Of a DNA stretch of 33,880 bases, positions 921 to 8,523 are shown piece by piece. A model generated the notes under the pieces. It made no database searches, was not told the DNA's origin, and was given only the letters and a program-made list of their open reading frames with translations. Position 1 is the first letter of the stretch; every line of letters starts with the position of its first letter. This DNA is from Brunnivagina elsteri CCALA 953 (lineage in GTDB: Bacteria; Cyanobacteriota; Cyanobacteriia; Cyanobacteriales; Nostocaceae): positions 1-33,880 of the forward strand of contig NZ_NTFS01000018.1 in the NCBI RefSeq assembly GCF_002289455.1, given 5' to 3'. The translations under genes were made by a program, and so were the position numbers.

Positions 921-1511
921 ATGGCATATCAATGGTTTAAAGCATTTCATATCATTGGCGTTGTCGTGTGGTTCGCTGGATTATTCTATTTAGTACGTCT
1001 CTTTATCTATCATATCGAAGCCGAACAGGAACCCGAACCCGCAAAAAGCATCCTCCAAAAGCAATACACCATTATGGAGAAGCGACTTTACGGCATCATT
1101 ACCACACCAGGTATGCTAGTCACTGTTGCTTGTGCGATCGCATTATTGGTGACGCAACCGGAATGGCTACATCAAACTTGGATGCATGTAAAACTTGGTT
1201 TTGTTGTCTTATTATTGGGTTATCACCACTACTGTAAACGCTTAATGCGACAACTCGATCAAGGTACTTGTAAGTGGACAAGTCAGCAAATGCGGGCAAT
1301 GAATGAAGCACCTACAATATTACTTGTAATTATTGTTATGTTGGTGATTTTCAAAAATAGTCTTCCTGTAGATATGACAACCTGGGTAATCTTTGGTTTA
1401 GTTTTGCTTATGGCAGTAACAATACAACTTTATGCCCGTAAGCGTCGTCTTGACAAAGAAAAAGAATTAGCGCAAATGGCAAATACCCAAGCACTTCAAG
1501 AACAAGCATAA
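921..1511 (+). CDS. hemJ: Protoporphyrinogen IX oxidase HemJ
   Basis: 196 residues, very hydrophobic, with about four to five membrane helices. The N-terminus (AYQWFKAFHIIGVVVWFAG), the KRLYGIITTPGM segment and the HVKLGFVVLLLGYHHYCKR segment are hallmarks of the HemJ family; the conserved His in helix 1 and the Lys/His of the third segment are visible. HemJ oxidises protoporphyrinogen IX to protoporphyrin IX, the last step shared by heme and chlorophyll synthesis, in the membrane; it replaces HemG/HemY in most cyanobacteria. The ATG follows an AAGGCAGG ribosome-binding site. The C-terminal tail (about residues 172-196) is charged and probably cytoplasmic. It looks like a single-gene unit. 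Confidence 0.93.
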   Translation: MAYQWFKAFHIIGVVVWFAGLFYLVRLFIYHIEAEQEPEPAKSILQKQYTIMEKRLYGIITTPGMLVTVACAIALLVTQPEWLHQTWMHVKLGFVVLLLGYHHYCKRLMRQLDQGTCKWTSQQMRAMNEAPTILLVIIVMLVIFKNSLPVDMTTWVIFGLVLLMAVTIQLYARKRRLDKEKELAQMANTQALQEQA

Positions 1512-1524
1512 TATTTTATGGAAA

Positions 1525-1560
1525 GTTAGGAGTTAGGAGTTAGTAATTACGAATTACGAA
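1525..1560. repeat. Heptamer-type short tandem repeat
   Basis: Just after hemJ the DNA reads as overlapping units of gttagga followed by two copies of an attacgaa unit. Such heptanucleotide arrays (STRR-type) are common between genes of heterocystous cyanobacteria. Related GGAGTTA/CCACTAA units recur around 26189, 26245, 26357, 27303 and 33181 in this window. Confidence 0.6.
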
Positions 1561-1582
1561 TAATCCTTTCTCCCTTCCCCTA

Positions 1583-1750
1583 CTATTTTGAGATTAAAGA
1601 TTGAATAATGCCTGCGATCGCACCTAAAAGTAGCACAATCCCAGGCATGGAACCAATGGCAAAACCGATCCCTCTTTTTTCAGCAGCTTGATAATATCCC
1701 CAAGCATAGATAATACGTCCTAAGAGAACCCCACAGAATAATTGATCCTG
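1583..1750 (-). pseudogene. MAPEG (microsomal GST-like) gene remnant, C-terminal part only
   Basis: The minus strand encodes 55 residues without its own start codon, beginning QDQLFCGVLLGRIIYAWGYY and ending LISK before a TAG stop. The GRIIYAWGYY...AEKRG pattern resembles the end of MGST3-type MAPEG proteins (membrane glutathione transferases/peroxidases, normally about 130-150 residues). The N-terminal half is absent: immediately upstream, in the same frame, is the TGA stop of the 76-residue gene at 1751-1981. This is what a deletion that removed the 5' half of a MAPEG gene would leave. Family assignment is from recalled motifs. Confidence 0.6.
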
Positions 1751-1981
1751 TCATAAATGTTGCTGTTTGGGCGAGGGATACTCTGCTTCAGACATCTCAG
1801 GCTCAATTGCATAGTTATTGACAATTCCCTCATAGTCTACTGTGTAACCAGCCCCTAATGGCTCATTAAGCGATTTTCCGGCTTCTTGCCGTGCATGTGC
1901 TTGAACCTCTGCGGGGATTAGCTCACTACCATCACTAGGAGGATGTGTTGCTGCTTTCTTCTCTTTATCGGTGTAAGTCAT
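1751..1981 (-). CDS. Small hydrophilic conserved-type protein, possibly 3'-truncated
   Basis: 76 residues, acidic and soluble (HPPSDGSELIPAEVQAHARQ..., ending YPSPKQQHL). It resembles a family of small cyanobacterial proteins that, as I recall, continue after the SPKQQ motif into a single membrane helix; here the frame stops two residues after that motif, where the MAPEG remnant begins in the same frame. The tail may therefore have been lost in the same deletion that beheaded the MAPEG gene. The ATG has a GAGG ribosome-binding site about 11 bases upstream. Function unknown. Whether it is still functional cannot be judged from the sequence. Confidence 0.6.
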   Translation of the reverse strand: MTYTDKEKKAATHPPSDGSELIPAEVQAHARQEAGKSLNEPLGAGYTVDYEGIVNNYAIEPEMSEAEYPSPKQQHL

Positions 1982-2204
1982 AGTTATATTGCCTCATAAG
2001 GTTAATTTTAAAAGCTGAGTACTGGTAGGCATTACCCAACTCTGTCTTAAGTAGTCGGGCATTCATTAATTCTGCTAATCTGCACTCAATACAGATGGAT
2101 ACTTAGTAAAAAGGCTTTGCTCATGAGTCCCTTTTGACTCTAAGGCTACTCAAAAAATTTGAGGAACTTGTGAGTAATCGCCGATATACTTCTACTACAA
2201 TGGA

Positions 2205-2396
2205 TCACTTACCGATACGAATTCCATGGAGAGAACTAAGCACTCCGAACACATTCAGCACCCACACAACGACGGCGACGACAACTGCAATGTTCAGGAT
2301 TTGCTTGATCTTCCTATCCATCGGAATGTAGTTGTTCACGAGCCACAATAGAACCCCAACCACAATGAGAACTATCACAAATTGGACTAGATCCAT
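2205..2396 (-). CDS. Thivi_2564-family small membrane protein
   Basis: 63 residues with two membrane helices, roughly residues 4-22 and 33-53, separated by the loop NNYIPMDRKIK. The pattern VGVLLWLVNNYIPMD...ILN...VWVLNVFG matches small two-helix membrane proteins annotated as Thivi_2564 family, of unknown role but often near other envelope-stress genes. The start follows GAGG nine bases upstream. The next gene on this strand upstream is the lmo0937-like protein, 69 bp away, so both may share a transcript. Confidence 0.8.
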   Translation of the reverse strand: MDLVQFVIVLIVVGVLLWLVNNYIPMDRKIKQILNIAVVVAVVVWVLNVFGVLSSLHGIRIGK

Positions 2397-2465
2397 GATG
2401 AATAACCTCTTTTTTACTATCTAAGGAGTACGGTTTTATGCTTGCAAGCCAAGCCACAATGGTAA

Positions 2466-2621
2466 TTAAAAACTACGACGACCTATAAACAAGTTGTAGA
2501 CAATGCCAATCAGTGCCAAAATCAAAAGCAGGTGGATTAAGCTACCACCGATGTGAATTGAGAATCCTAACAACCAGAGCACGAAAAGCACAACAACGGC
2601 AGTCCAGATGAGATTCAACAT
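2466..2621 (-). CDS. lmo0937-family small membrane protein
   Basis: 51 residues, starting MLNLIWTAVVVLFVLWLLGF and ending FIGRRSF, with two membrane helices around the HIGGSLIH loop. This is the layout of lmo0937-family proteins, tiny envelope proteins of unknown function found in many bacteria and often stress-induced. A strong ribosome-binding site (GGGAGG) sits eight bases before the ATG. It is easily missed because it is so short. It lies between the Thivi_2564-like gene and the broken CsbD-like gene, all on the minus strand. Confidence 0.8.
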   Translation of the reverse strand: MLNLIWTAVVVLFVLWLLGFSIHIGGSLIHLLLILALIGIVYNLFIGRRSF

Positions 2622-3079
2622 ATTTTCCTCCCGTATTTTTAGATAAAAGTGGTGAAAATCCAGCCAGAGTAAAAGGTTATTAGAAACTATGACGGGTCTT
2701 AGGCTACCTTGCCATTTACCGTCATTGCGAATGGAGCGAAGCGGAATGAAGGTAAATTTTTTTTGTCCACTTACTTAATACTTGACGGCGTAAATTTATC
2801 GATGGATAGTTCCTCCGCTTCTTTGAGAAGCTAGAAATCTGGTAACATTGGGTTTACTTATACCAATTCAATATGAAAATGCATATAATTTGCCTGACTC
2901 CGCAGGCTTTGTTTATTTAGCCCCAGGCTTCCAGCCTGAGGGCGTTAATGTGCAGCCTCACATAGAATTGCGATTACGCCGCTTTGTACTATAGCGGTTC
3001 ACTTGTGTCGAAAGAAGCTATTCTTTGAGGAAGGTTTCAATTATTTGCCTGAATAGCGATCGCCATAATAAATGATCAA
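2622..3079. other. Gene-free spacer with palindromic repeats
   Basis: No coding region is seen. It holds an imperfect palindrome at 2717-2755 (gtcattgcgaatggagcg...), a hairpin at 2891-2907 (gcctg/caggc) and a second at 2920-2943 (caggct/agcctg). These look like dispersed cyanobacterial palindromic repeats; none resembles an RNA gene I know. Confidence 0.5.
2717..2755. repeat. Imperfect palindromic intergenic repeat
   Basis: Outer arms tacc-tcatt / aatga-ggta enclose gcgaatggagcgaagcgg, itself rich in short self-complementary words. The sequence resembles the widespread 'gtcattgcgaatggagcgaa' dispersed repeat of bacterial genomes. It would fold into a hairpin in RNA. Confidence 0.5.
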
Positions 3080-3262
3080 CTAGTCAACAATTTTTTTGAC
3101 TTCATCTTTCACATCTTCGATAATGTGACGAACTTTTGCCTCTGTCTGTTTTGCTTTGCCCTCTGCCTAAGCTTTAGGATCACCAGTTAGATACCCTACT
3201 GCTTCTTGAAGTTTACCTTCGATATTTTTGGCGGTTGCCTTGACTTTATCGTTTAAACTCAT
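3080..3262 (-). pseudogene. CsbD-like stress protein gene with a nonsense codon
   Basis: The minus strand encodes a full-length, 60-codon CsbD-family protein starting MSLNDKVKATAKNIEGKLQE and ending DEVKKIVD, except that codon 32 (3167-3169) is TAG. The context GDPKA-stop-AEGKAKQTEAK suggests a CAG (Gln) or AAG (Lys) codon changed by one base. CsbD-like proteins are small, lysine-rich, stress-induced proteins of unknown mechanism. The frame is open on both sides of the stop, so the lesion is probably recent, or is a sequencing error. The start has a GGAGA-type ribosome-binding site. The truncated 31-residue product would lack the second half of the domain. Confidence 0.8.
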
Positions 3263-3596
3263 GATTCTCTCCTGATTGAATTTGAGAACTACTTGCTACA
3301 AACGAGTTAACTATTCTGCTTCTAGTAGTCTGTCAACTTTATTTTGACGGATGTTAGTAGTGCGGGCATCCTGCCCACGTAAGAGTTTTAATCACAATAT
3401 ATCCGTCATTTTTATCTTGACAGAGTACTAGTACTAGTGTAAGAGATGGTTGTTTTATTTCCTGAATGAATTGATTCAACACGATACAAAACGTAACTGA
3501 AAATACAATGTAAATGACATATGTAATAAGATGTTTATGTTTATGAAGCTAGGTTAATTTTAGAGCTTATTTTCCTATTTTTGAGCAGGGGTAAAA
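3263..3596. other. Spacer between csbD remnant and DUF6671 gene
   Basis: Apart from the MITE-like element at 3323-3430 I see no gene. The last 150 bases are AT-rich and presumably carry the promoter of the gene starting at 3597, but no convincing -35/-10 pair was identified. Confidence 0.4.
3323..3430. mobile_element. MITE-like element with ~30-bp inverted ends
   Basis: A 108-bp unit is bounded by 3323-3352 (tagtagtctgtcaac...tgacggat) and 3401-3430, which reads as the near-perfect reverse complement. The two arms match at the great majority of positions. The centre contains a small palindrome (gcgggcatcctgcccac). There is no coding capacity. This is the structure of a miniature inverted-repeat transposable element. 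The flanking ctag/actag words may include the target duplication, but its limits are unclear. Confidence 0.65.
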
Positions 3597-4463
3597 ATGC
3601 AAACTCAAGATTCATTATTTACCAATCGGAACGCGATACTAGCGACTATGCATAAAAAAGAGCAAGTTATCGCACCAATCTTAGAACAAGAATTAGGAAT
3701 TAAACTCATAATTCGGGCAGATTTGAATACCGATAGTTTTGGTACTTTTAGTCGGGATATTAAAAGAGCAGGAACACAAATTGAAGCAGCACGATTAAAA
3801 GCAGAAAAAGCCTTAGAAATTACAGGTGAAAAAATTGCGATCGCAAGTGAAGGTAGTTTTGCTCCACATCCCCATCTGCCTTACATTTCTAGCAATAAGG
3901 AAATAGTTATTTTTATTGATCGAGAACTTGATTTAGAAATAATTGGTGAGGAATTTTCAACTGACACCAATCATAATCATCAAGCCATACAAAATTTAGA
4001 GTCAGCTTTTGATTTTGCCAAAAAGGTAGGTTTTCCCGAACATGGTTTAATTGTCATGTTGAATGAAAACCCTAAAGATAGCAGTGAAGTTTTTAAAGGG
4101 ATTAATACTGAATCAAAACTGATTGAAGCAGTTAATCTAATTCTGAAAAACTCCTCGACAGGTAAAGCTCATATGGAAACAGATATGAGAGCAATGTATA
4201 ACCCAACTCGGATGAAAAATATTGAAAAAGCTACTCGCAATTTAATTAGTAAAATTAAAAGTTGTTGTCCCAAATGTTCCACTCCTGGTTTTACAATTAC
4301 TCAACGAATCCAAGGTTTACCTTGTGGAATGTGTTATGCACCAACTTTATTAACTAAAGCTGTAATTTATGAATGTAAAAAATGCGGTTTTAGGAAAGAA
4401 AGATTATTTCCTGATGGCATAGAACTTGCCGATCCAGGACAATGTACGTATTGTAATCCTTAA
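3597..4463 (+). CDS. DUF6671-type protein with C-terminal zinc-binding cysteines
   Basis: 288 residues, soluble. The first ~210 residues form an alpha/beta domain (NAILATMHKKEQVIAPILEQ at the start; HPHLPYISSNKEIVIFIDRE in the middle). Residues ~223-288 carry four CxxC-type pairs (CPKC, CGMC, CKKC, CTYC), suggesting two zinc ribbons. The layout fits DUF6671, a family with no established function. The ribosome-binding site is AGGGG. The downstream neighbour is convergent, separated by a strong hairpin. The zinc ribbons hint at nucleic-acid or protein binding, but that is inference. Confidence 0.75.
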   Translation: MQTQDSLFTNRNAILATMHKKEQVIAPILEQELGIKLIIRADLNTDSFGTFSRDIKRAGTQIEAARLKAEKALEITGEKIAIASEGSFAPHPHLPYISSNKEIVIFIDRELDLEIIGEEFSTDTNHNHQAIQNLESAFDFAKKVGFPEHGLIVMLNENPKDSSEVFKGINTESKLIEAVNLILKNSSTGKAHMETDMRAMYNPTRMKNIEKATRNLISKIKSCCPKCSTPGFTITQRIQGLPCGMCYAPTLLTKAVIYECKKCGFRKERLFPDGIELADPGQCTYCNP

Positions 4464-4470
4464 ATAAAAT

Positions 4471-4512
4471 TATCCCCATATCCCCGACTTCTTAAAGGGG
4501 GATATGGGGATA
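4471..4512. terminator. Shared hairpin between convergent genes
   Basis: A perfect 15-bp stem (4471-4485 with 4498-4512; left arm tatccccatatcccc) closes a 12-base loop. It sits between the stops of the DUF6671 gene and the converging acyltransferase gene. There is no long T-run on either strand, so it may end transcription from both sides imperfectly, or act as a 3' stabiliser. The arm sequence is also seen in dispersed cyanobacterial repeats. Confidence 0.55.
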
Positions 4513-4525
4513 TGGGGGGAATAAA

Positions 4526-5500
4526 TTACCAAAATAAATGATTTAAAAAGTTCCGCAAAGGTTTTTTTCCAACTGGTTCAGAATAATCCATTGGCAATAA
4601 GTTTTGAATTGCTACTTGTAGTTCATCTATTACTGCTTGAATTTGTTCAGCTTTGATTCGATTACACTTAGGAAATACTAAAGGCTCTCCAATTCTTACT
4701 ATTAACTCCTTGCGGAAAAATAAGTCTTTAGTTCCAACAAGTGCAATAGGTAAAATCGGAACACCAGAACGCAATGCATAAATTGCAGCACCACGTTTTA
4801 AAGGTAATACTTGTCCTTCAACAGCACCTAACTTACCTTCAGGAAACAGTAAAACACTATCACCACGATTAAAAATTCCTTGGACAATTCTGTCTAATCT
4901 TCGCATTGATTCAATCGAATTACCTTTAGGGACATATTTTTCAATATCCGCAGCAAGTTCCCCTAAATCTTCACATCCTGCTTTTGCTGCTTCAACTACC
5001 GCTATTTCTTCTTTCCACATTCTTTCCAGGGGAATAACTCCCTTAGCAAAACGTAGTAATATACGCTTCCAATTGTTGTTATATAAGGTACGAGCATCAC
5101 CCAAAATATGAAAATATGGTTTTGCAGGTAATTCCGATAATAGTAAAAATGGGTCAATATGGTTGAGGTGATTTACTGCTATCAATACAGGAATATTGGG
5201 AATTCTTTCGGAATTTTCAACTTTCACACAAAATAGGGTATTTATGATTATTCGCATTACCATACGTCGAATGTAACCGCTAATTTTGCGCTCTGTACCA
5301 CCTTCTAACAAAGCTTCCTGCGATAATAGGGTTTGTTGAATCATCTGATTAGAAGTGCGATCGCGTGCAAATTCTAAACCTTCACCAGCACGTTTAATTG
5401 CTTCTTCGGTTAATTCTGTTTGGTTATTAAATTGATTATTAACAATTAGTGCTGAATTAGCTGAATTAAATTTCTGTTCACAATGCAAAGTAGATGTCAT
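4526..5500 (-). CDS. 1-acyl-sn-glycerol-3-phosphate acyltransferase-like protein (PlsC family)
   Basis: 324 residues. The acyltransferase motif H-x4-D is at residues 111-116 (NHLNHIDPF) and the acceptor-binding FPEG at 219-222. PlsC enzymes add the second acyl chain to lysophosphatidic acid at the inner membrane. The ~95-residue N-terminal extension before the catalytic domain is unusual for PlsC, and there is a ~60-residue stretch between the first motif and FPEG containing VIPLER. Without a strong ribosome-binding site at the first ATG, an internal start is possible (Met53 or Met80). It may be a divergent member acting on another glycerolipid acceptor. No operon partners are visible. Confidence 0.82.
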   Translation of the reverse strand: MTSTLHCEQKFNSANSALIVNNQFNNQTELTEEAIKRAGEGLEFARDRTSNQMIQQTLLSQEALLEGGTERKISGYIRRMVMRIIINTLFCVKVENSERIPNIPVLIAVNHLNHIDPFLLLSELPAKPYFHILGDARTLYNNNWKRILLRFAKGVIPLERMWKEEIAVVEAAKAGCEDLGELAADIEKYVPKGNSIESMRRLDRIVQGIFNRGDSVLLFPEGKLGAVEGQVLPLKRGAAIYALRSGVPILPIALVGTKDLFFRKELIVRIGEPLVFPKCNRIKAEQIQAVIDELQVAIQNLLPMDYSEPVGKKPLRNFLNHLFW

Positions 5501-5893
5501 TTCGATTTTGGATTGGGATTTTTACTAAGAATTAATTATTTGGGAACATCAAAAAATAAATATTCCCAATATACAAGGGGTGGGATTTTTTACTTTCTAG
5601 AAGTTCTTTAAATAAGGTGTGCTGTTCGCTATGTAATTACACTAGCTGAAGACAAACTACAAAAGTTAATTACTGAGACAGTTTTTTTCAATGTCCTCAA
5701 ATAAACCTGTTCTAGCTCAATAAATACAGCTATTTGCACTTATTTTGGTGGACAGACGCTTAATTGTCATATGTGGCAGAATATATTTTCATATTAATTT
5801 TTCATCTAGAGAGACGTGACATATCTCATCTCTACAAGATTTTGGATATTCTAAATTCTAAATTCCAACTTCTGATTTCTGATTTATTCCTTA
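5501..5893. other. Gene-free spacer
   Basis: 393 AT-rich bases. No gene or RNA is recognised. Around 5809-5847 lies a degraded copy of an 'agagacgt...tctctac' palindrome of the kind often dispersed in cyanobacteria. Confidence 0.4.
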
Positions 5894-6547
5894 TTAAAAT
5901 TCCTTCCAAGCAAAATCCCGCATAGATTTTCGTGATTTATCGTTGTATCCAACTCTATTTTCCCGTTTAGCTTTCAAAACCGTTTCTAACGACTTAACTA
6001 TTTGAGATATTTCTGGAACAGCACGCTTTTTCGGATGATTATTCAGATACAAACACTCCTTAGTTGCTGATAACTCATCTTTGCGGGGAGATGCATAAAA
6101 ACTTAAAGCATCACTTGCCAAACAAGCACCAACTATCTCCACATAGTTTAGATAAGTTACACAAAAAACCAAAATTTCATCCTCTTCCGGTTCATATACA
6201 ACCGGATCTGTTTTTTGAAAAACCCATGACTTTTCGGCGCGATCGCAATGTACACTTTTAACATGGAGTCTTGCATTTACAGTTTTGATATCCGCATCAA
6301 AACTTTTCTGATGTCTCTGATGAATGGAAAAATCCACCTCTTCAGTAATCTTTACCCCTATTCTCCCTATTTCCCTCTCAACAGCGACTTCTGCCAACTT
6401 TGCCCAATATGCCTGATTTATAATAATTTCGATATCCGTTTGATTTCTATCCTTGGCATAAATATCACCAACGGTATCGGCATAAATCTCCGCAAACTCT
6501 CTACAATCTTGTTTATTCTGCTCTGTAATACTTATTTTTATAGCCAT
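5894..6547 (-). CDS. Uncharacterised protein, possible PD-(D/E)XK nuclease fold
   Basis: 217 residues, soluble, not assigned to a named family. A helix with Glu (KLAEVAVEREIG, about residues 50-61) is followed by FDADIKT and then LHVKSV, which has the spacing of a PD-(D/E)XK nuclease core (Glu helix, Asp, then x-x-Lys on the next strand). The canonical D/E two residues before the Lys is His here, so activity is uncertain. No methyltransferase or other restriction partner is adjacent. The C-terminal ~50 residues are basic (NHPKKRAVPEI..., KAKRENRVGYNDKSRKSM). The start is the first ATG; no good ribosome-binding site is seen. It could instead be a non-enzymatic relative. Confidence 0.6.
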   Translation of the reverse strand: MAIKISITEQNKQDCREFAEIYADTVGDIYAKDRNQTDIEIIINQAYWAKLAEVAVEREIGRIGVKITEEVDFSIHQRHQKSFDADIKTVNARLHVKSVHCDRAEKSWVFQKTDPVVYEPEEDEILVFCVTYLNYVEIVGACLASDALSFYASPRKDELSATKECLYLNNHPKKRAVPEISQIVKSLETVLKAKRENRVGYNDKSRKSMRDFAWKEF

Positions 6548-6798
6548 TTTAGAAAATTTGCCAGCAACAGCCTATCACTCAACACTAGTATAAAAAAGTG
6601 TAGTTATGCAAATAAACCTTATCTAAGTAAGTTAGCATCAATAAATTCAACTATATTTATTTTATTCTCTCTGCGTCCTCCGCGTCTTGGCGGTTCACTA
6701 ATATTTTATTTAATTAATTCTGACAGATTCCCGACTTCGATCGAAAAGCCGGAAATCTTCTATTCCACTAAGTAAAAACTCGGAAGCAAAAAATCTAA
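6548..6798. other. Spacer with a dispersed-repeat fragment and a hairpin
   Basis: Contains ctctgcgtcctccgcgtctt near 6668, a fragment of a common cyanobacterial intergenic repeat, and at about 6722-6757 an imperfect stem (gattcccgactt with aagccggaaatc) that could end transcription of the flavoprotein gene on the minus strand. No gene is seen. Confidence 0.4.
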
Positions 6799-8523
6799 TT
6801 AATACTTCCGCTCCAGTGGTTCAAACATCCCCACATTCACCGGAACATATTGAATATCAATCCCCGCAGGTGAATAATAGGCAAACGTATGCTGTAAAAA
6901 ATTACTATCATCACGCTGTGAATAATCTTCGCGAAAATGCGCTCCTCGGCTTTCCTTCCGCTTAAAAGCTGAATTCAGAATAACCTGCCCAACCAACATC
7001 AAGCTGCGTAATTCCAACGCTTCAACCAACTCCGTATTCCAATCTTTGCCTTTATCATCTAAGTAAATTTGCGAATATTGCTGCTGATATTCTTGTGCTT
7101 TTTGTAATCCCTGCTCCATCAATTCCGCAGTCCGAAATACCCCGCAATATTCCGTCATTGCATCTTGGAAACCCTGCCGAACTTGATTAATCCGCAATTT
7201 TCCTGGTTGGTCAATTAAAGCTTGAATTTCCTGCTTTGCCTCATTAATATACTTCTGCTCATTAATTGTGGGTAACTTGCGGTTTTCCACATAACGAGCA
7301 ATACTTGCTCCCGCTCTTCTGCCATAAACAACACATTCCAACAGCGAATTACTACCGAGACGATTTGCACCATGAACCGACACACAAGATGTCTCCCCAG
7401 CCGAGAAAAAGGCTTCAATCACACCATCAGCACTACTACGAACTTGACAGTCAGTGTTAACAGGAATACCACCCATACAGTAATGAATTGTCGGACGCAC
7501 GGGCATTGGTTGGGTAACAGCATCCACCCCAACTAAACGATGTGCTTCTTCCCAACAAAAAGGAACCCGACTCATGATTTTTTCCTTACCCATGTGCCGC
7601 AAATCCAGATATACAAAGCCTCCCCCCGCACTCCCATCCAGATTAACACCACGTCCAGCGCGAATTTCATATGCGATCGCACGGGATGTAATATCTCTAG
7701 GTGCAAGTTCCATTCGACTAGGTGCGTATTGCGACATGAATCGTTCACCTTCACTGTTGATTAAATACGCCCCTTCTCCCCGCACTGCTTCGGAAATCAA
7801 CACACCAACGGGTAATCCTGTGGGATGGAACTGGACAAATTCCATATCTTCCAACGGTAAACCAGCTTGTGCAGTCATTGCTAAACCGTCACCTGCGGAA
7901 GCATAATCATTCGATGTGGTGTTATAAACGCGACCATAGCCACCTGTAGCAAACATCACAGCCTTTGCCCGCACGACTTCAATATGTCCGTCCTGAATAC
8001 GGAACATAACAACACCTTTCGCTACGCCATCTTCCAATATCAGGCGCATTACGTACCACTCTTGATAAACTTTTACACCATTACGCCGTAGATTATTGAC
8101 TAGTTCGTGTAAAATTGCATGTCCCGTTTTATCCGCAGCGTAACAAGTGCGATTGTGGGAATGTCCACCAAATGCCCGTTGAGCAATTCTGCCATCAGGA
8201 AGTCGGGAAAACAGCACTCCCATATGTTCCAAATCGATCACAACATCGGCAGCTTCCTGAGTCAAAATCGCAACCGCATCTTGGTCAGCTAAATAATCGG
8301 AACCCTTGACAGTATCAAACGCATGTGCTTTCCAGCTATCCTCCGCATCAACATTTTTTAAACTTGCTGCCATTCCCCCCTGAGCAGCGACAGAGTGCGA
8401 TCGTATCGGGTGGGTTTTTGCAACTACGGCAACATTCAAACTGGGGTTAGTACGAGCAATTTCCACAGCCGCACGACATCCAGCTAATCCACCACCAACG
8501 ATAATTACATCATGTTCGAGCAT
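6799..8523 (-). CDS. sdhA: Succinate dehydrogenase/fumarate reductase flavoprotein subunit
   Basis: 574 residues, close to the usual SdhA length. The FAD-binding GGGLAG is at residues 10-15, the HSVAAQGG segment with the covalent-FAD histidine at 43-50, FGGHSHNRT at 118-126 and HPTG of the dicarboxylate site at 233-236; MGGIPVNTD follows further on. The subunit oxidises succinate to fumarate and passes electrons to the Fe-S subunit and plastoquinone in the thylakoid membrane. No sdhB is nearby; in cyanobacteria the subunits are usually unlinked and the anchor proteins are unclear. Two small membrane-protein genes lie upstream on the same strand. Related L-aspartate oxidase is excluded by the SdhA-like C-terminal region. 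Confidence 0.92.

Follow-up and report, generated by a model that had tools for sequence, protein, structure and literature searches.

What does the gene on the reverse strand at positions 5894–6547 of this window (the whole stretch of 33,880 nucleotides analysed here) encode, and what might its product do in a cyanobacterium? A first-pass annotation, made from the letters alone, had read it as an orphan nuclease-like protein of the PD-(D/E)XK type and left open whether it was a solitary restriction-like nuclease, a repair nuclease or a defence protein of unknown type. The analysis below supports the reading as a PD-(D/E)XK restriction-like nuclease. The first of the three options fits best, given that members of a related clade are paired with a GGCC methylase and that most of the phage DNA carrying the solitary gene is free of GGCC.

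A conserved gene in an unannotated family

The frame is intact from its ATG to its stop codon and encodes a protein of 217 amino acids (P0001). Its neighbours are an acyltransferase gene (4526–5500) and a gene for a flavoprotein of the succinate dehydrogenase/fumarate reductase type (6799–8523), and within its own genome (G000; 7.0 Mb in 801 contigs) the protein matches only itself. An intact orthologue with 83% identity is found in Calothrix NIES-4101 beside the same acyltransferase gene (85% identical), and another, 72% identical, is present in different surroundings in the MAG MO_167.B47. Three pairs of intact orthologues give pN/pS values of 0.20–0.24 over the 217 codons, compared with 0.16 for the adjoining acyltransferase (one pair). 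As far as sequence comparison can establish it, the intact homologues and these ratios confirm a real gene and not a chance frame. In a further genome (G002), only a decayed 3' end covering residues 165–217 remains (L007, 1501–1656), with flanks that by eye resemble the same two neighbour genes as in the window.

P0001 has no significant match in Pfam, PADLOC, NCBIfam or the PDB, and thus none in Pfam to an N-terminal EAD1 domain. Six family members likewise yield no NCBIfam match above the cut-off (the best, at E 0.022, is far below threshold), and a profile search of the PDB with the family returned one chance match only. Weak PHROGs matches of unknown function were discounted, and a Pfam VirArc_Nuclease match for P0007 (E 0.017), which lies below the cut-off, was not used. 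The nuclease family is undescribed and unannotated.

Searches with single proteins found matches in 4 of 60 relatives and, among 386 cyanobacterial genomes, in 3. With the family profile, 7 of the 386 give a match, four of them weakly or in part, as do 5 of the 217 genomes of the window organism's own family, one of these as a 72-amino-acid fragment. Among 50,697 phage records, tblastn gave a sole match, Rm378p099 of Rhodothermus phage RM378 (30% identity, E 2e-7). Further members were found in the cyanobacterial genomes G318 and G130 and on many IMG/VR contigs, although one IMG/VR scan that used the G130 member returned no matches. The G130 member led to one on a plasmid of Calothrix NIES-4105 (L026, 4668–5564; P0013), which is fused to an N-terminal EAD1 domain (5.3e-21). 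In G467, which we take to be the NIES-4105 strain, a member has identical coordinates on its contig. A Bradyrhizobium match (L004) was rejected as chance, as it falls within what we read as a gene for the gamma subunit of ATP synthase. A fragment of another member (G034:C1:357436-357618; L068) was also noted, as were three remote proteins with a GE...D...VK pattern (L069 in G187, L070 in G365 and L071 in G027; E 2e-7 to 5e-5) that may be a further branch of the family.

The 59 matches collapse to 37 distinct proteins, of which 35 were placed in a tree, two fragments being excluded. Five members (L014, L026, L010, L009 and L029) form a clade with support of 100/99 in which Ala or Ser precedes Val-Lys, the residue being His in all other members; the fragment in G034 is of this AVK type. 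Because the tree has no outgroup, the AVK clade is called no more than a related clade. The window protein falls with the cyanobacterial trio on a separate branch (100/100) with a long stem of 2.69 changes per column. Among the aligned members, only the three cyanobacterial orthologues have a long C-terminal tail (about residues 168–217; 5894–6046, reverse strand), which is modelled with low confidence from residue 199.

Predicted fold and active site

The AlphaFold2 model of the window protein, built with nine sequences, has a pLDDT of 81.5 and a pTM of 0.82, and so furnishes the PD-(D/E)XK core that had been expected of a structure prediction. A helix at residues 39–63 is followed by strands at 67–69, 87–89, 93–100, 107–111, 124–131 and 135–143, with pLDDT below 50 at residues 77–83 and 199–217. 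The model of the phage member L014 (21 sequences) reaches a pLDDT of 89.5 and a pTM of 0.88. In VIA-align, the closest structure to the window model is I-Ssp6803I (Z 9.4, rmsd 4.0, 131 residues aligned), followed by Eco15I (8.1), Hjc (8.0), NhoI (7.7), SPARDA (7.5) and DpnI (7.2); the best score of the L014 model is 7.8, with NhoI. VIA warns that Z values of 7 to 8 are common by chance for models without relatives, and for the window model only 9.4, 8.1 and 8.0 are at or above this range. The accord among the rows carries more weight for these models than any single score: the 50 rows listed per model consist entirely of nucleases (restriction enzymes, resolvases, homing enzymes and defence nucleases), which we take to be proteins of the PD-(D/E)XK fold. 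The predicted core is common to I-Ssp6803I, Hjc, DpnI, NhoI/Eco15I, EcoRV and PvuII, albeit at only 7–16% identity in the listed rows. Foldseek found nothing in the PDB below E 0.001 for either model (window best E 0.03; weak and mixed matches for L014). Against predicted viral proteins, the window model gave 39 matches at E ≤0.001, mostly to unnamed phage proteins. The PD-(D/E)XK core is thus a prediction, without a solved structure.

The first-pass annotation had recognized a Glu-bearing helix, FDADIKT and LHVKSV as following the order of this core, and both the alignment and the predicted fold bear this out. Glu53 (codon 6389–6391; this and the following codons are on the reverse strand) lies in the long helix, Asp86 (6290–6292) in FDADIKT just before the strand at 87–89, and Lys97 (6257–6259) in LHVKSV on the strand at 93–100, together with His95 (6263–6265). 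The region around Asp84 and Lys96 had been named as the likely cluster of active-site residues; the motifs were placed correctly and the numbering was slightly off, the invariant residues being Asp86 and Lys97. Across the alignment of 37 proteins, Asp72 (6332–6334), a second invariant Asp ahead of strand 2, Lys81, Ser82, Asp86 and Lys97 are each conserved in 36 of 36 rows, Asp84 in 35 of 36, and Glu53 in all 35 rows that cover it. Neither of the results named beforehand as refuting, a fold without the central sheet and helix or a lack of conservation of the Asp and Lys, was obtained.

The His that had been seen in place of the usual acid before Lys is genuine: position 95 is His in 31 rows, Ala in four and Ser in one, and never Asp or Glu. 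The protein therefore fails the test for an orthodox (D/E)XK enzyme and is not filed as one, and the aligned sequences indicate that loss of this acid is a trait of the whole family. Archaeal-type Hjc, for all its similarity of fold, differs in this respect, as the motif acid is missing from the nuclease family. PD-(D/E)XK enzymes in which the acid has been lost or has migrated have precedent in PMC551604, which includes Cfr10I, NgoMIV and Vsr among enzymes without Asp or Glu at this position. What distinguishes the present nuclease from these three is the likely substitute, the Glu of helix A ahead of the Asp, and the presence of His, Ala or Ser at the vacated position. Judging from conservation, the metal would probably be held by Glu53 and Asp86, and Lys97 would activate the water, with His95 not serving as an acid ligand.

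A probable GGCC methylase adjoins the nuclease in a related clade

No methylase had been noticed near the gene, and none was found in the window: there is no match to an M.CbeI-type methylase profile and no stop-to-stop frame of at least 120 amino acids that contains a motif typical of methylases (DPPY or PPCQ, for example), in a scan that used a profile and motifs and did not compare each frame with Pfam. As no linked cognate methylase was found in the window, the gene is not filed as part of a type II restriction-modification system. Among homologues, whose neighbours the first-pass annotation had proposed to check, the result is different. Three of the five AVK members (G130, L014 and L029) adjoin a D12-class methylase; in G130 an ATG of the methylase frame and the stop of the nuclease share a 4-base overlap, the two frames overlap on the L014 phage contig, and in L029 the methylase lies 23 bases from the nuclease in a different gene order. 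Among the matches listed for the five AVK surroundings, the methylase is the sole other common frame (42–54% identity, three pairs). Of the remaining members, G318 has such a methylase elsewhere in its genome, and the other is the EAD1 fusion on the NIES-4105 plasmid.

In the PDB, the L014 methylase matches 7m6b with E 7.9e-69, the next best match being at 2.4e-15. PMC8616854 identifies 7m6b as M.CbeI, and PMC3425538 describes M.CbeI as an alpha-class N4-cytosine methylase with the target GGCC; it shares 57% identity with Anabaena DmtB, by which the inner C of the same sequence is modified. From this match and these specificities, the target of the paired methylase is likely to be GGCC and not GATC, a candidate suggested by the Dam-like family name and dropped on this evidence. 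The arrangement in G130, L014 and L029 resembles CbeI/M.CbeI of Caldicellulosiruptor bescii and DmtB of Anabaena, in that a methylase of the same subfamily adjoins the nuclease and the inferred target of the nuclease is also GGCC. It differs from CbeI-type pairs in that the cyanobacterial methylase often has another partner and the present nuclease is mostly solitary.

This other partner is seen in the window genome itself, where an M.CbeI-type methylase, unlinked to the nuclease, is encoded on contig C787 (194–1018, reverse strand; L028) beside a 379-amino-acid frame without a Pfam or NCBIfam match (1015–2154, reverse strand). The pairing of the methylase with a frame of 361–379 amino acids recurs in cyanobacteria, at 10 of 29 short loci and also in G011 and G467. 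This frame may be the CbeI-type restriction enzyme, an inference made without comparison to the CbeI sequence; no kinship is detectable between this frame and the nuclease studied here. M.CbeI-like methylases are found in 74 of 386 cyanobacterial genomes (E 1e-45), 41 of which, by a count of the listing, belong to the window organism's family. Because they are this common, their presence in five of the six cyanobacterial genomes with an intact nuclease (G000, G033, G130, G318 and G467, where it is unlinked, but not G001) is not taken as evidence. Nothing closer to M.CbeI than 22% identity was found in NIES-4101, which does have three matches to C5 methylases, their target being unknown. The stretch of L029 at 1261–7381, filed as viral, resembles a defence island, with an N6/N4 methylase, a 361-amino-acid partner frame, the M.CbeI-type methylase, the nuclease, a TIR protein and a 498-amino-acid frame without a Pfam match that by eye is like a short Argonaute.

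Most phage DNA with the solitary gene lacks GGCC

Since the paired methylase points to GGCC, this sequence was counted in the DNA around the nuclease genes and compared with a second-order Markov expectation. In 11 of 13 phage contexts with a solitary nuclease GGCC is wholly absent, with about 7 to 201 sites expected, and the pooled count is 21 against 746. These contexts comprise 742,717 bases; several are only parts of contigs, and three (G426, G427 and L202) are one PolA group. The counts against expectation include 0 of 201 in G428 (160 of 301 kb counted), 0 of 56 in G425, 0 of 35 in G427, 0 of 32 in G424, 0 of 31 in G419 and 0 of 23 in G426. The whole 130-kb genome of RM378 has no GGCC for 158.5 expected, which makes it the second lowest tetramer there after CTAG. 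No other tetramer is at zero in more than two of the 13 contexts (CATG, CTAG and CCGG in two each), and related words are abundant (GGCT 1776, GGNCC 330). GATC, CCGG and other palindromes were counted beside GGCC, and GGCC alone tracks the gene. The exceptions are two solitary phage contigs, G421 (14 sites for 135 expected, two of them within 1.5 kb of the nuclease gene) and G423 (7 for 38).

Other words are missing from some of these genomes. RM378 (L117–L123) has no CTAG for 115 expected; CTAG is presumably the site of RmaI, an enzyme of its host. G421 (L137–L141) has no CCGG for 63 expected and one CGCG for 71. The 7966-base contig L045 also lacks CATG, CCGG, CGCG, CTAG and GCGC, as if many palindromic tetramers were avoided.

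Control contigs without the nuclease, collected with a DnaB helicase query, retain the site: none of 23 is at zero, and together they have 1189 of 1455 expected sites, whereas two DnaB-query contigs with the nuclease have none of 19.6. As the controls are on the whole richer in G+C, the eight AT-rich ones were taken separately; these have 123 sites for 173.2 expected. Each control was counted over at most about 21 kb, and a nuclease gene further away is not excluded. Fisher's test for 11 of 13 against 0 of 23 gives 1.3e-7, or 3.2e-6 after a rough collapse of the PolA group; both values ignore the remaining kinship among phages and are a guide only. A query with the PolA that neighbours the gene returned 30 contigs, 29 of which carry the nuclease and have no GGCC at all (0 of 295.8); the lone contig without it, matched through a remote PolA, has 5 for 3.8 expected. 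The 29 represent one lineage, overlap in several cases with the contigs already assigned to the nuclease family, and offer no real control without the gene. The solitary nuclease gene is associated with GGCC-free phage DNA. A phrase-based search of the open-access literature found no published description of phages that lack GGCC and carry a solitary enzyme.

When the paired methylase is present, the L014 phage (G418) has 7 sites for 7.1 expected in 63.5 kb and G130 has 35 for 103, yet L029 (G422) is depleted, with 3 for 60. In G318, where the methylase is unlinked, the count is 98 for 135, and the stretch of NIES-4105 plasmid has 1 for 13. For the phage and methylase-paired clades, the specificity of the methylase's relatives and the loss of sites in phages are strong indirect support for GGCC specificity.

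Phage copies that are 68–83% identical occur in surroundings (L019, L034, L021–L024 and L035–L039) that, among the matches listed, share nothing else but a weak 34% methylase match (L034/L039). Scattered copies of this kind, combined with the loss of sites, fit a mobile weapon. Some solitary phage copies do have a methylase in their vicinity: a C5 methylase frame overlaps the nuclease gene in L045, and a distant D12 methylase frame lies 1.7 kb from it in L034. In the loci listed for the PolA group the order is PolA, small frames, the nuclease and a dATP/dGTP diphosphohydrolase (identified by Pfam on L050 and L055).

GGCC in the window genome and its relatives

The window itself (1–33,880) contains no GGCC for 39.1 expected, the lowest of all 256 tetramers, and 211 kb of its genome contain 4 for 217.9. 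G033 has 5 for 117. In G002, where the nuclease has decayed, GGCC is still nearly absent (2 of 82 in the stretches counted), and NIES-4101 has 28 for 196.9 in 137 kb despite its intact, 83% identical gene. Fifteen control genomes of the same family, sampled over 20 kb each, have 196 of 526 expected sites and a median ratio of 0.36; the ratio of the window genome is below that of 14 of them. The remaining one, G011, has no GGCC for 18.5 expected, and it has an M.CbeI-type methylase. These controls include the genomes with the nuclease-family fragment (G034) and one of the remote matches (G027). Relatives that lack the gene are short of GGCC too, and M.CbeI/DmtB-type methylases are widespread among them, so that the cyanobacterial counts do not point to the nuclease gene in particular: the low count in the window genome is consistent with a GGCC-cutting nuclease but is not decisive. 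GGCC specificity of the window protein itself is inferred, the data for its own clade being no more than consistent with it.

Discussion

We consider it probable that the window gene encodes a solitary PD-(D/E)XK endonuclease that recognizes unmethylated GGCC and acts by the mechanism proposed here. A restriction-type endonuclease for GGCC is the most likely identity of the protein, although there is no assay and cutting is inferred. In the related clade, adjacency and the kinship of the methylase suggest that the nuclease and an alpha-class N4-cytosine methylase for GGCC would together form a two-gene restriction-modification unit. In phages, to judge from the loss of sites, it would work without a methylase in a genome purged of GGCC; having lost the site, the phage genome would need no methylase, and the enzyme would spare that genome while cutting the DNA of the host or of rivals. 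The absence of GGCC suggests that these phages distinguish self from non-self by this sequence, and whether the enzyme serves in host DNA breakdown, in the exclusion of rival phages or in both is a matter of inference. In the window cyanobacterium, the nuclease most likely restricts incoming DNA, the host being protected, by inference, through its very few GGCC sites and probably also through the unlinked M.CbeI/DmtB-type methylase on C787.

The association with GGCC-free DNA could also arise if the nuclease had another task, such as that of a Holliday-junction or recombination nuclease in phage replication, and the sites had been removed by GGCC restriction in the hosts. Host restriction could in principle have done so, since RM378 also lacks CTAG; the Hjc resolvases rank high among the fold matches (Z 8.0), and in the PolA-group loci listed the gene adjoins those for PolA and dATP/dGTP diphosphohydrolase. 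We nevertheless find this improbable, because GGCC is the one tetramer at zero in 11 of 13 contexts from unrelated phages, with no other exceeding two, and 23 contigs without the gene keep it; moreover, neither the common GGCC methylase of the related clade nor the undepleted L014 phage, small as its numbers are, would be explained. No more credence can be given to a modification-dependent nuclease (type IIM/IV-like) that cuts methylated GGCC and whose bearers must lack any GGCC the host could mark. NhoI and Eco15I, both solved with methylated DNA, and DpnI, a methyl-dependent nuclease, are among the closest folds, and M.CbeI/DmtB-type methylases are common in cyanobacteria, but the pairing with a GGCC methylase in three of five related-clade members would then be suicidal, and the L014 phage retains GGCC beside both genes.

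A free-standing homing endonuclease moving between phages would account for I-Ssp6803I, itself a homing endonuclease, as the best fold match, for the closely similar copies in surroundings otherwise unrelated among the matches listed, apart from one weak methylase match, and perhaps for a GIY-YIG-like frame seen by eye near the L021 copy. Homing enzymes have long targets, however, which would not empty a genome of one four-base word, and neither the conserved neighbours of the PolA group (among the matches listed) nor the pairing with a methylase would be expected, so that this reading is very hard to sustain. A concern of another kind is that the window copy, irrespective of the rest of the family, has lost its nuclease activity or acquired a different target. 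The long cyanobacterial stem, the additional C-terminal tail, the decayed copy in G002 and the GGCC retained by NIES-4101 all permit this, but the invariant residues are intact and pN/pS is near 0.2, and we regard such a change as unlikely, though not negligible.

With the GGCC endonuclease as the preferred reading, the nearest parallel for its solitary state is PacI. PacI recognizes a rare 8-bp site and has a fold other than PD-(D/E)XK. The present nuclease would share with it self-protection by missing sites, and would differ in that the absent site has only four bases and the DNA that lacks it is that of phages, which for RM378 means the whole 130-kb genome. PMC3488263 presents PacI as a solitary restriction enzyme whose host genome is protected by lacking the site. 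For cyanobacterial conflict systems, PMC7159879 describes EAD1-linked effectors and effectors with a restriction-endonuclease fold; the NIES-4105 plasmid member is like the former in its N-terminal EAD1, and the window protein, which has none, is not.

We put at about even the wider proposal that phages carry solitary four-base cutters without a methylase, purge the site from their entire genomes and destroy host or rival DNA, while in bacteria the same enzyme serves as half of a restriction-modification pair, as an EAD1-tethered effector or as a stand-alone chromosomal gene. A previously unannotated nuclease family thereby gains a testable target, GGCC, and an unusual active site, and missing sites offer a simple means by which a genome can harbour a frequent cutter and dispense with methylation. 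Confirmation would make this a clear case of viral base composition reshaped to suit a carried weapon, and would make a single tetramer at zero a marker for finding more such enzymes together with their targets.
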